Shown here: piece by piece, positions 33,507-37,392 of the stretch
Numbering within the stretch: position 1 is the first letter of the stretch
How the letters are laid out: each line of letters starts with the position of its first letter
Assembly: GCA_023254905.1 (NCBI GenBank)
Contig: JALRKF010000076.1
Span: 1 to 51,600 of the forward strand
Length of the DNA stretch: 51,600 nucleotides
DNA from: Crocinitomicaceae bacterium
Lineage (GTDB): Bacteria; Bacteroidota; Bacteroidia; Flavobacteriales_D; Crocinitomicaceae
Reading direction: 5' to 3'
Program-made: the position numbers and the translations under genes
The notes under the pieces: model-generated
Seen by the model: only the letters and a program-made list of their open reading frames with translations
What the model was told of the DNA's origin: nothing
The model's database searches: none

Positions 33507-33866
33507 ATGAAAATGTTGAAATTAATTTTACCGGCAGTTGTTTCTTTCGCTTTATTTACCTCATGTGGTGAAACAGTAACGGCAGATGATACAGCAAAGC
33601 ACGAATGCACGGATGAGTGTGCGGAGAAGTGCAAAAAGATGGGGTGTGACGAGAATTGTGAAGGGCAATGCGAACACAAGGCCAGTGAGGAAGGACATAC
33701 CTGTGATTCAAAATGCGAAAAAGGCTGTTGCGCGGAAAAAACGGATAACACAGAATCTTCAGATTATACAGCAAAGCACGCATGTACGGATGAGTGCGCG
33801 GAGAAGTGCAAAGAGATCGGTTGTGACGAGAACTGCGAAGGACAATGCGAACACAAAGCTAGTTAG
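33507..33866 (+). CDS. Cysteine-rich lipoprotein made of a duplicated 59-residue unit, truncated by an in-frame stop
   Basis: 119 residues: lipoprotein signal with lipobox FTSC (Cys20), then a unit (29-87) with ten Cys in the pattern HEC, DEC, EKC, GC, NC, QC, TC, KC, GCC. A second copy of the unit starts at residue 88 but ends after six Cys at TAG 33864-33866. The same frame continues with the remainder of the copy to a second stop at 34017-34019. The dense Cys content suggests metal binding or disulfides outside the inner membrane. No named family was recognised. The stop corresponds to GAG in the first copy, a one-base change. The copy is probably a decayed gene end, but a base-calling error would also explain it. 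Confidence 0.75.
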   Translation: MKMLKLILPAVVSFALFTSCGETVTADDTAKHECTDECAEKCKKMGCDENCEGQCEHKASEEGHTCDSKCEKGCCAEKTDNTESSDYTAKHACTDECAEKCKEIGCDENCEGQCEHKAS

Positions 33867-33944
33867 AAAGGACATGCCTACAATTCAATATGTAAAAAAG
33901 GTTGTTGCACGGAAAAGGCGGAGGACGCAGAATCTGCGGAATCA
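33591..33944 (+). repeat. Tandem direct repeat, two 177-bp units inside the cysteine-rich gene
   Basis: Unit 1 (33591-33767) and unit 2 (33768-33944) are both exactly 177 bases (59 codons) and clearly homologous, beginning with the same ACAGCAAAGCACG. Differences cluster more heavily in unit 2 after its TAG. Confidence 0.85.
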
Positions 33945-34019
33945 GAAATAATCAATGGTATTAAACAGATTGAAGAAGAAGTATTCGGAAGTGGACAAGG
34001 AATAATACACCATCTTTAA
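33867..34019 (+). pseudogene. In-frame remnant of the cysteine-rich lipoprotein after the TAG
   Basis: The frame after the stop reads KGHAYNSICKKGCCTEK, clearly equivalent to EGHTCDSKCEKGCCAEK of unit 1, then a helical acidic tail of about 25 codons ending at TAA 34017-34019. One Cys of the unit (TGT to TAC) is lost here, in keeping with relaxed selection after the stop. No start codon allows separate translation of the entire piece. Confidence 0.6.
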
Positions 34020-34970: not shown

Positions 34971-35816
34971 ATGAATACGCTTATCAGTTTTAGAACACAT
35001 TTAATTACCTCGCTCAAGGATGCGAGAAATATCCAGATAATTTATCTTGCCTTATTTCTGGTATACGGTATTTCAAGCCTTCAATGGGATATAAGCCCAT
35101 TAAAAGTATTATTGCTTTTAGGTTCTGTAATCGTTACCCAAGCTATTTGGATTTTGATCGTAAAAGCATCTTTTAAGAGTTTAAAAAGCGCATTGATCAC
35201 AGGTTTAGGTTTAAGCATCTTGTTGCAAACTGGGTCAGATCTCACATTGATAGTCGCAGGTGTGCTCGCGATAAGCAGCAAATTCATAATTCGTGTGAAC
35301 AATAAACATCTTTTCAACCCAGCAAATTTTGGGATTATTGCAGGTATTTTTCTTTTTCAGGATGCATGGATCTCACCAGGGCAGTGGGGGAGTGATACAT
35401 ACTTTTTATTGATCCTATCGCTCCTGGGCGGGTTTATCCTATTTAGGATCGGAAGGCTTGATACCTCTCTAATATTTCTAGGAAGTCTTTTTCTTTTTGA
35501 GTTCTTAAGAACCTATCTCTATCAAGGATGGGGTATGGATGTGCTACTGCATAAATTTTCAAGTGGTACGCTTCTTTTATTTGCTTTTTTTATGATTACA
35601 GATCCTATGACCATTCCTGATTCTCGCAAAGGAAGAATTCTATGGAGTCTAATGGTCAGTTTATTAACCTTTGTGTTTAGCAATTGGATACAGATCTATA
35701 CAGCGCCCATTTGGGTGATCTTCTTCTTGACTCCTTTAACAGTATTAATCGATAAAGTTTATCCAAGTTCCAAATTTCAATGGAACGCCTTAACCAATAA
35801 AACAACACATGTATGA
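34971..35816 (+). CDS. Orphan NqrB/RnfD-family integral membrane protein
   Basis: 281 residues, nearly all membrane-spanning (about nine hydrophobic helices). The features KHLFNPANFGIIAGIF and FSSGTLLLFAFFMITDPMTIPDS match the NqrB/RnfD family, subunits that carry flavin in sodium- or proton-translocating redox pumps. The S/T-G-A-T site where RnfD binds FMN covalently was not found, and the other Rnf or Nqr subunits are absent from the window, so it is an orphan and probably does another job. It overlaps the DUF2330 gene by four bases (ATGA). The start at 34971 follows an AT-rich divergent region shared with the nitroreductase gene. Confidence 0.87.
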   Translation: MNTLISFRTHLITSLKDARNIQIIYLALFLVYGISSLQWDISPLKVLLLLGSVIVTQAIWILIVKASFKSLKSALITGLGLSILLQTGSDLTLIVAGVLAISSKFIIRVNNKHLFNPANFGIIAGIFLFQDAWISPGQWGSDTYFLLILSLLGGFILFRIGRLDTSLIFLGSLFLFEFLRTYLYQGWGMDVLLHKFSSGTLLLFAFFMITDPMTIPDSRKGRILWSLMVSLLTFVFSNWIQIYTAPIWVIFFLTPLTVLIDKVYPSSKFQWNALTNKTTHV

Positions 35817-37333
35817 AAAAGTTATTCCTATTATCCGGACTTGTCGCTCTAATTACACTTAATGCCGCCTCGTTTTGCGGTTTTTATGTAGCTAAAGCAG
35901 ATGCGAAACTATTCAACAAAACGTCACAGGTAATTCTTGTGCGCGATGGAAACAAAACGACCGTAACCATGTCAAATGACTTCCAGGGAGACGTCAAAGA
36001 TTTTGCCATGGTCGTCCCAGTTCCAACAGTACTCAAACGTGAAGATATCCGTGTATCCGAGGCTGCTTTGTTTAAAAAATTGGATGAGTACTCAGGGCCT
36101 CGGCTTGTTGAGTACTACGATGAAAACCCATGTGAACCCCGCATATATTATGACTTGGTAGAAATGGCCGCCCCAATGTCAGAGGTACAATCTATATCCA
36201 TGAAATCAATCAGAAGAGCAAATAACTTAGGTGTAAAAATTGAAGCTCAATATGAAGTTGAAGAGTACGATATCTTAATCCTCTCTGCGAAACGTTCCGC
36301 TGGATTGAAAACGTGGTTGATTGAAAATGGGTATAAGATACCTGAATCTGCGGAAGAAGTTCTTGATCCATACATCAAGAATAACCTCAAGTTCTTCGTG
36401 GTAAAAGTAGATGTAGAGAAACTTGACAAGATTAACGGTGTCGGTAATGTAAAAAAGTATATTAATGATCCGGAGTTGGCAAATACAAGAAGTTTGCGTC
36501 CCTTACAGATTACATATGACTCACCGAAGTTCATGCTACCCATCCGTTTGGGTATGGCGAATGCGGAAACTGACCAAGATATGATCGTTTACGCCTTCTC
36601 GAAAGAGGGAAGAGTTGAATGTACGAACTATAGGACGGTAAAGATCCCAACCAATAAAAATGTACCTCTTTTTGTCAAAGATGAGTTCGGTAAGTTTTAT
36701 GTTGATCTCTTCGATAAAGTAAATCAGAAGGAAAACAAGGAAGCCGTCTTCTTAGAATATGCTTGGAATGTCTCTCCACAGTTCTCTGGTGTAAAATGTG
36801 ATCCTTGTGTTGGACCTCCACCTATATTTGCTGACTTCCAGAAAGCTGGAGTAGACTGGGCAATTAACTCTAACAACACAGCAAGTAATCAAGTGTTCTT
36901 TACGCGATTACATGTAAGATATGCACGTGAGACACATCCGCAGGATCTTCAATTCCATGTCACACCAAATAGGGAGCATTTCCAAGGACGCTATATTCTT
37001 ACTAATCCAGCGAAAGGTGATTTAAGTTGTGATGACGGTCAGCGTTATTTGGCAGGGTTGATCAAAAACAGAGCCAATGAGCTCGAAGAATTATACGCTT
37101 TGACTTCTTGGAACACCCATCAATACAGTAATTATATTCAAGAATATTATGGTTTGTTAAAAGATAAATCATTATTAAATGAAGTTGATGAGAAACGAAA
37201 TGAGCTTATTCCAGGCTTTCAACCTAAAGATAAGGATCCGAACAACTGGCTTAAATGGTTAGTTTTAGTCATAATTGCTCTTTTAATGGTGAAAACAGCT
37301 TTTAAAATGAGAAAATTACGAGTAAGTAATTAG
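35813..37333 (+). CDS. DUF2330 family membrane-anchored extracytoplasmic protein
   Basis: 506 residues with a signal peptide (about 1-19), a large extracytoplasmic domain, and a C-terminal membrane anchor (about 480-495, WLVLVIIALLMVKTA) with a short basic tail. The DUF2330 marks are the first mature Cys22 in FCGFYVAKADAKL, the segment DFAMVVPVPTVL and the CDPC pair (329-332) followed by VGPPP. Six Cys in all (22, 107, 270, 329, 332, 406) suggest disulfides or a metal or cofactor site. Function unknown. It is translationally coupled to the NqrB/RnfD-like gene, and a strong terminator follows. The two likely act together in the membrane. Confidence 0.87.
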   Translation: MKKLFLLSGLVALITLNAASFCGFYVAKADAKLFNKTSQVILVRDGNKTTVTMSNDFQGDVKDFAMVVPVPTVLKREDIRVSEAALFKKLDEYSGPRLVEYYDENPCEPRIYYDLVEMAAPMSEVQSISMKSIRRANNLGVKIEAQYEVEEYDILILSAKRSAGLKTWLIENGYKIPESAEEVLDPYIKNNLKFFVVKVDVEKLDKINGVGNVKKYINDPELANTRSLRPLQITYDSPKFMLPIRLGMANAETDQDMIVYAFSKEGRVECTNYRTVKIPTNKNVPLFVKDEFGKFYVDLFDKVNQKENKEAVFLEYAWNVSPQFSGVKCDPCVGPPPIFADFQKAGVDWAINSNNTASNQVFFTRLHVRYARETHPQDLQFHVTPNREHFQGRYILTNPAKGDLSCDDGQRYLAGLIKNRANELEELYALTSWNTHQYSNYIQEYYGLLKDKSLLNEVDEKRNELIPGFQPKDKDPNNWLKWLVLVIIALLMVKTAFKMRKLRVSN

Positions 37334-37360: not shown

Positions 37361-37392
37361 AAATGGAGGTAAGTTTTACCTCCATTTTTTTT
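37361..37392 (+). terminator. Strong rho-independent terminator after the DUF2330 gene
   Basis: AAATGGAGGTAA and TTACCTCCATTT form a perfect 12-bp stem with a 3-base loop, followed by more T residues to 37392. It ends the NqrB/RnfD-like/DUF2330 transcript and shows that the helicase gene cannot start at 37363. Confidence 0.93.

Follow-up and report, generated by a model that had tools for sequence, protein, structure and literature searches.

An orphan NqrB/RnfD-family membrane protein and its near-obligate, repeatedly fused DUF2330 partner in Bacteroidota: a possible two-part membrane redox complex

What does a membrane protein of the NqrB/RnfD family do when it stands outside any nqr or rnf operon, beside a protein whose domain has no known function? 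The question is raised by two adjoining genes in a stretch of 51,600 nucleotides (hereafter the window; positions 1 to 51,600 of contig JALRKF010000076.1) from a Crocinitomicaceae bacterium, whose assembly (GCA_023254905.1) comprises 2.27 Mb in 167 contigs and is 83% complete. The first open reading frame (ORF1) encodes the NqrB/RnfD-like protein and the second (ORF2) a DUF2330 protein. An initial annotation, made from the letters of the window, proposed that the two form an undescribed membrane complex with DUF2330 as the extracytoplasmic partner. The two products very likely do act as one membrane complex, because the pair is co-inherited and often fused across many Bacteroidota.

Both proteins score above the gathering thresholds of their families: ORF1 reaches 51.9 against 27.7 bits with PF03116 (NqrB/RnfD), best in its C-terminal half, and ORF2 reaches 228.5 against 24.7 bits with PF10092 (DUF2330). 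PF03116 is the sole Pfam match of ORF1 at E-values up to 1, with no PF00175 domain, which binds nicotinamide adenine dinucleotide (NAD), and ORF1 lies far under the cut-off of the NCBIfam rnfD model (TIGR01946; 37.8 against 207.05 bits). The NqrB/RnfD motifs FNPANF and FFMITDPMT that had been read in the first protein are present, and the description of the genes as one unit holds: they overlap by four bases (ATGA), and the terminator that follows has a perfect 12-pair stem. As the annotation had stated, no other nqr or rnf gene lies near, none being seen by eye among the ORFs between 31 and 41.5 kb of the window. In the whole genome, a PF03116 profile search found two places only: ORF1 and, on a different contig, the NqrB gene within an nqrABCDEF operon. 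This NqrB was assigned by profile search and alignment, and the other five subunits were named by eye. The annotation had also raised the case of an operon elsewhere that lacks its NqrB; since this one has its own, ORF1 is not a displaced NqrB, and a split Nqr operon was rejected.

The pairing is near-obligate in the material compared. A scan of GTDB contigs with patterns made from Bacteroidota proteins gave 508 confirmed DUF2330 relatives, and the best 80 loci, which are not a random draw and several of which have short flanks, were examined. All 80 are from Bacteroidota by their record titles and the scan patterns come from the same phylum, so the claim of pairing is limited to Bacteroidota. 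An RnfD-like gene is found in 76 of these loci, upstream of the DUF2330 gene and on the same strand in 59, and fused with it into one ORF in 17. The 59 unfused junctions include ten four-base overlaps; of the others, most are separated by no more than 75 bases and none by more than 542, longer negative values being taken to be an artefact of counting from the first possible start codon. Clustering of the 919 ORFs around the 80 loci, whose flanks differ in length, revealed no third gene of comparable frequency (next commonest cluster, 15/80). Four loci are without a partner. The genome of L058 has an RnfD-like gene on another contig, that of L084 carries five DUF2330 copies, three of which adjoin an RnfD-like gene, L079 retains a partner fragment at the contig edge, and L110 is cut at the contig edge (it begins at base 3), no match being found in its genome.

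Similar results were obtained from genome samples. Among 296 genomes of the phylum, DUF2330 occurs in three, including that of the window, and an ORF1 relative adjoins it in all three. Two orders were then sampled, 199 and 149 of their genomes being taken out of larger sets. In the order of the window, 43 of the 199 genomes have DUF2330, a patchy distribution, and 40, all of them among the 43, have the RnfD-like type (at least 319 bits); a script found the pair adjacent in 40/40, with 56 to 177 bases between the domain matches. The DUF2330 genes without a partner (G300, G311, G445) are all cut by contig edges, and a short RnfD-like fragment is present on a second contig of G311. In the order of the fused relative G292, where adjacency was judged by eye and the cut was at least 324 bits, 15 of 149 genomes have DUF2330, 16 the RnfD-like type and 15 both, with the two adjacent in 13. 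Weaker hits of 145-152 bits (G007, G517, G528) were left out there; that of G007 is locus L016, of a second orphan type described below. The RnfD-like gene of G623, the sixteenth and without DUF2330, lies no more than 380 bases from the edge of its contig, on the side on which the partner gene would be expected. Together, the 348 genomes of both orders give 58 with DUF2330, 56 with the RnfD-like type, 55 with both and 53 with the two adjacent, the four singles lying at contig edges; the L058 exception enters both the 80 loci and this sample, because G543 agrees in hits and coordinates with G492, from which L058 comes. The pair is therefore not confined to one species, as the annotation had asked to be checked. 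In addition, distances within the DUF2330 and RnfD-like families correlate (r 0.76; 78 loci or genomes), the pattern that would be expected of co-inherited genes.

The two genes have also been joined repeatedly. In G292, both are contained in a single frame of 774 amino acids. On a DUF2330 tree of 90 rows (87 from the 80 loci plus the window, G045 and G292; quick method), the nearest relatives of the window protein are from Crocinitomicaceae, and the 18 fused rows need seven changes of state, at least six of them forced by well-supported branches, with gains and losses indistinguishable. Four genomes (G337, G320, G370, G451) are fused by open-frame length, and their congeners are unfused. The predicted structure of one natural fusion, L040 (764 residues; 125-row alignment; mean predicted local distance difference test (pLDDT) 85.9), places one hydrophobic helix at the junction between the halves, and its predicted template modelling score (pTM) of 0.82, which bears indirectly on the interface that the annotation had asked about, is taken to mean a defined mutual placement of the two. 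The termini of RnfD extend into the cytoplasm, according to the available portion of PMC9588780. Because the junction helix changes the side of the membrane relative to an RnfD-like C-terminus, DUF2330 would be extracytoplasmic; its place as the extracytoplasmic partner in a conserved unit, which had been proposed from the window, is supported by the pairing and the repeated fusion.

Some loci depart from the simple two-gene layout. At L055:4996-12343, one RnfD-like gene is followed by five tandem DUF2330 genes and a sixth cut by the contig edge. At L108:4426-7926, a natural insertion has split the RnfD-like gene in two; of the ORFs that lie between the parts, one is transposase-like by eye. 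Four genomes of the window's genus that are 98-99% complete (G442, G446, G480, G487) are without DUF2330, so the module is patchy even inside the genus, by loss or transfer. On a plasmid of Deinococcus sp. QL22 (L117:7905-9274), DUF2330 is spread over several frames, apparently broken, and has no RnfD-like neighbour.

The membrane fold was examined on the model of the fused relative L040, in place of the window protein. The membrane half of L040 gives matches to Azotobacter RnfD (8rbq_D; Z-score 24.6, root-mean-square deviation (rmsd) 3.2, 249 residues aligned) and Vibrio NqrB (Z 21.5-22.8), the next matches being ammonium, Rh and urea transporters (Z 9.8-12.1). Residues were mapped by profile alignments from the ORF1 family to the genome's own NqrB and from there to the numbered Vibrio NqrB chain. 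The RnfD-like alignment had 78 rows (hits above 200 bits plus the window, G045 and G292) and omitted the two parts of L065 as well as the N-terminal part of L108; further alignments comprised 125 rows (A4) and 69 rows (A3). In NqrB, riboflavin is contacted by G198, N200, T162, D346, A205, F342 and N203 (PMC10643135, in the part available to us). The equivalents of N203 (N116), F342 (F207) and D346 (D211) are unchanged in 78/78 rows each, that of T162 (residue 77) is Thr or Ser in 77, and the G198 position, a backbone contact, is Gly in 54.

ORF1 nevertheless differs from known NqrB and RnfD. It lies outside any nqr or rnf operon, and no nqr or rnf gene was seen by eye among the neighbour clusters listed for the 80 loci. 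The segment that carries covalent flavin mononucleotide (FMN) on a threonine, part of the linker that joins two halves of five helices each, is a gap in profile alignments of the ORF1 family to NqrB/RnfD, which bears out the absence of a flavin-attachment site noticed in the window; SGAT-like strings occur in just 3 of the 78 hits, one of them (L046) directly after SPGQWG, and none is conserved. The Glu of PGSxGE, residue 274 by our count, is present in 13/13 NqrB/RnfD rows, whereas the ORF1 family has Ser, Asn, Thr or His there, never an acid. The available text of PMC10643135 places the side chain of E273 at the ion exit of NqrB, and the PGSxGE Glu is likely, although not certainly, this ion-exit acid. 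With the FMN linker deleted, the PGSxGE acid gone and the pocket mostly kept, the ORF1-type protein resembles a flavin-site subunit without the covalent FMN and probably also without the ion-exit acid. The kept riboflavin-contact residues favour a predicted binding of flavin without covalent attachment.

The second protein had been described as exported, anchored at its C-terminus and carrying six Cys including CDPC, and each of these features is found (Table 1). Five of the six Cys are near-invariant, Cys107 and Cys406 being present in 90/90 rows each; the exception, Cys270, is kept in 53. A Pfam scan at E-values up to 1 found no UnbV_ASPIC domain in ORF2. No sequence relative of solved structure was found for DUF2330, the lone match (E 0.83) being set aside as chance, as were weak Pfam matches such as TssO and OST3_OST6. 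There was no sign of a viral origin, eight pattern matches in the viral collection giving no confirmed relative, nor of a plasmid origin (three plasmid records, from Deinococcus and Nocardia).

Table 1. Features of the two-gene unit, in positions of the window
Feature	Position	Strand	Basis
ORF1, orphan NqrB/RnfD-family membrane protein, 281 amino acids	34971..35816	+	ORF; PF03116, 51.9 bits
HLFNPA, residues 113-118 of ORF1; equivalent of the NqrB riboflavin-contact stretch N200xxN203PA205, Asn200 replaced by His	35307..35324	+	profile alignment; H, N and P each in 78/78 rows
FFMITDP, residues 206-212 of ORF1; F207 and D211 equivalent to NqrB F342 and D346	35586..35606	+	profile alignment; F and D each in 78/78 rows
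ORF2, DUF2330 protein, 506 amino acids; ectodomain between a hydrophobic export segment (N-terminal) and a membrane helix (C-terminal)	35813..37333	+	PF10092, 228.5 bits; model
Signal-peptide-like segment, residues 1-20 of ORF2, ahead of conserved FCGFYV	35813..35872	+	hydrophobic stretch before FCG in 89/90 family rows
Cys22 of ORF2, near the likely mature N-terminus	35876..35878	+	89/90 rows
CDPC (Cys329-Cys332) of ORF2	36797..36808	+	both Cys in 90/90 rows
Residues 478-505 of ORF2, a membrane helix at the C-terminus with its basic tail	37244..37327	+	helix in model; C-terminal hydrophobic segment in 86/90 rows
Intrinsic terminator, perfect 12-pair stem and T tract	37361..37387	+	sequence

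Two observations go beyond the initial annotation: a remotely P35-like predicted fold of DUF2330 and a second orphan type paired with UnbV/ASPIC proteins. The model of the window DUF2330 protein (mean pLDDT 82.9) matches the baculovirus caspase inhibitor P35 (Foldseek E 4.7e-4; Z 10.8, rmsd 4.7, 221 residues aligned), followed by Legionella lpg2210 (Z 8.2) and by ribophorin and M1-peptidase domains (Z 7-8). The DUF2330 half of L040 gives a similar match to P35 (Z 11.2, rmsd 4.5, 215 aligned), which by Foldseek alone is weaker (E 0.023 or worse). Among predicted viral structures, three of the four best matches are one P49 and two P35 proteins (Foldseek E 3.3e-4 to 6.0e-3), and the other is a Tupanvirus protein. 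The template modelling (TM) scores of the P35/P49 matches are low (0.2-0.4). For 69 DUF2330 proteins the Pfam matches include no P35 family, in a list from which weak matches were mostly filtered and for which it was unchecked whether the library contains a P35 model. Unlike P35 and P49, DUF2330 is bacterial and membrane-anchored and has conserved Cys, and it showed no sequence match to them in that list. The likeness of the ectodomain may be described as a notable yet remote resemblance to which no meaning is assigned.

The second orphan type emerged from the 296-genome sample, in which 31 genomes match ORF1: three with DUF2330, 14 at E-values of 8.7e-30 to 5.8e-18 (L009-L022, mostly 275-320 amino acids) and 14 more weakly. 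It comprises 15 proteins, L009-L022 and the weaker L023, and the remaining 13 weaker matches are taken to be true NqrB/RnfD. Like the DUF2330-paired type, it is a stand-alone protein of similar length with a large second protein and has the signature HxxNP plus Asp (H113, N116, P117 and D211 in ORF1), which is present in 15/15 and 78/78 proteins of the respective types. The partner differs, as does gene order: an FG-GAP/UnbV_ASPIC protein is the upstream neighbour in 9/9 Pfam-scanned cases and in four more assigned by eye (L015, L020, L021, L022), so that its gene comes first in 13/13 seen, whereas the DUF2330 gene comes second. Of the remaining two, L017 is close to the end of its contig, and for L019 the stretch seen contains no UnbV/ASPIC neighbour. 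The names UnbU and UnbV for such a pair come from enediyne clusters, that of UnbU being tentative here. Nothing on the function of this orphan type was found in the open-access papers searched, as judged by listings.

A precedent for a two-part arrangement exists. The accessible part of PMC11334425 proposes an NqrB/RnfD-like complex in which a membrane part without flavinylation site meets an extracytoplasmic flavoprotein, and in which a cytosolic NAD domain supplies the electrons. As far as the available texts of PMC8238504 and PMC11334425 go, such two-subunit complexes resemble the pair in having a membrane part of this kind and one extracytoplasmic partner. They have, however, a PF00175 domain and an NqrC/RnfG-like FMN-binding partner, neither of which was found in the window pair. 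Because the NAD domain is missing here, a quinone is proposed instead. The explanation that we favour, at slightly less than an even chance of being right, is that the two proteins form a two-part complex that passes electrons between exported DUF2330 and quinone via a flavin-holding subunit of RnfD fold. The complex would be seated in the cytoplasmic membrane, its membrane part having the NqrB/RnfD fold without the covalent FMN site and the ion-pump partners, and with most of the non-covalent riboflavin pocket. DUF2330, exported and with a hydrophobic segment at both ends, would sit atop the outer face of the membrane part. The membrane part would bind flavin non-covalently and exchange electrons with quinone, and DUF2330 would be the electron donor or acceptor, perhaps through its conserved Cys. 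We strongly infer contact between the two proteins, and infer the cofactor, the redox role of the pair and the direction and substrate of any electron flow.

Several results weigh against this proposal. Within the pocket, the N200 equivalent is His in 78/78 family rows, a position that is Asn in 13/13 NqrB/RnfD rows, and the A205 equivalent is Ala in only 37 of 78, with Ser, Gly or Thr in 41. DUF2330 has no haem or iron-sulphur motif recognisable by eye and, in its 90 rows, no conserved [ST]GA[ST] flavinylation motif (two scattered strings); its best fold match is P35, not a redox protein. A site resembling that of signal peptidase, by a rough small-X-small rule, precedes FCG in 17/18 fusions, as in 54/71 single genes; with such a site retained between the two halves, fused chains may undergo post-translational cleavage. 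Adjacency, too, has exceptions: one DUF2330 copy of L084 stands away from its partner, G543 (the L058 exception) and G559 have the two genes on different contigs, and no RnfD-like gene lies within about 8 kb of DUF2330 on two plasmids of Deinococcus and in a single Nocardia record, so DUF2330 can exist without one nearby.

Other explanations were weighed against the same evidence. An alternative in which the membrane part is instead a channel or carrier, passing some small ion or solute, and DUF2330 forms its capture domain or outer gate, is unlikely. Ammonium, Rh and urea transporters do follow NqrB/RnfD among the fold matches, a likeness to urea or ammonium transporters is noted for NqrB and RnfD in the available parts of PMC10643135 and PMC9588780, and the covalent FMN segment is absent; however, the invariant residues include riboflavin contacts of NqrB, and the likely ion-exit position is never acidic here. 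An RnfD-like protein whose sole task is to help DUF2330 assemble or be exported, as its relative would for UnbV/ASPIC, without any redox role, would account for the occurrence of the same kind of orphan with two unrelated exported partner types. This is quite unlikely, as such a helper does not predict the flavin-pocket residues common to both orphan types. Mere neighbourhood through block inheritance of the region has next to no chance of being the explanation: the pair is compact and ends at a single terminator, but no other gene is found in more than 15 of the 80 loci, the distribution is patchy and fusion is repeated.

The fold resemblance leads to a different reading of DUF2330, as a P35/P49 relative that acts in the envelope as an inhibitor or pseudosubstrate of caspase-fold proteases, with the RnfD-like protein as membrane platform or redox switch. 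The N-terminal Cys of P35 has a role in the inhibition mechanism, and gingipain-K comes from a member of Bacteroidota. The mechanism of P35 uses its loop and N-terminus, and P35 inhibits gingipain-K, a bacterial protease, according to the available text of PMC3375223. In DUF2330, residues 113-137 form a variable loop of low confidence in the model, and this loop and the near-invariant Cys near the mature N-terminus recall those elements of P35, which is moreover the best solved match in two separate models and stands, with P49, among the best viral matches. We nonetheless consider this reading very unlikely, given the low TM-scores, other beta-rich domains next in line at Z 7-8 and no P35 family in Pfam matches from which weak ones were mostly removed; it also gives the near-obligate RnfD-like partner no role and leaves the conserved Cys unexplained. 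A combined version, in which DUF2330 is a cellular relative of P35/P49 held and controlled by a quinone-linked flavin descendant of NqrB/RnfD and forms a redox-gated envelope switch, possibly on caspase-fold proteases, is a long shot.

The surroundings of the pair in the window add no further member. The FMN nitroreductase noted in the initial annotation is present and divergent from the pair (PF00881, 117.7 bits), but a link to the module does not stand, as a relative was found at 0/80 related loci. The Cys-rich, Usp and helicase neighbours were rejected likewise (relatives at 0, 0 and 3 of 80 loci). The first of these, at 33507-33951, is a small, probably exported protein with Cys-rich repeats (ECTDECAEKCKxxGCDENCEGQC), without Pfam match at E-values up to 1 and with weak NCBIfam matches below cut-off; the repeat seems to continue in another frame (ORF 33586-33951), and a frameshift is possible.

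The constituent families are known; the combination and its near-obligate, repeatedly fused pairing appear to be new as far as we found. Under the family names, the DUF2330/RnfD-like pairing was found in none of the open-access papers searched, mostly judged by listings, and DUF2330 itself is named in none of them. To our knowledge, no origin of the P35 inhibitor family has been settled; were the P35 resemblance homology, it would bear on the origin of this viral family, and DUF2330 would perhaps be the first cellular relative known for a viral inhibitor of apoptosis. More generally, DUF2330, a domain without known function, gains a fixed partner, a likely place at the membrane and a testable chemistry. 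The NqrB/RnfD fold, for its part, persists beyond ion pumps in stand-alone subunits whose partners are of two kinds at least, DUF2330 and UnbV/ASPIC, and the role of such a bare subunit becomes approachable with two genes or one natural fusion.

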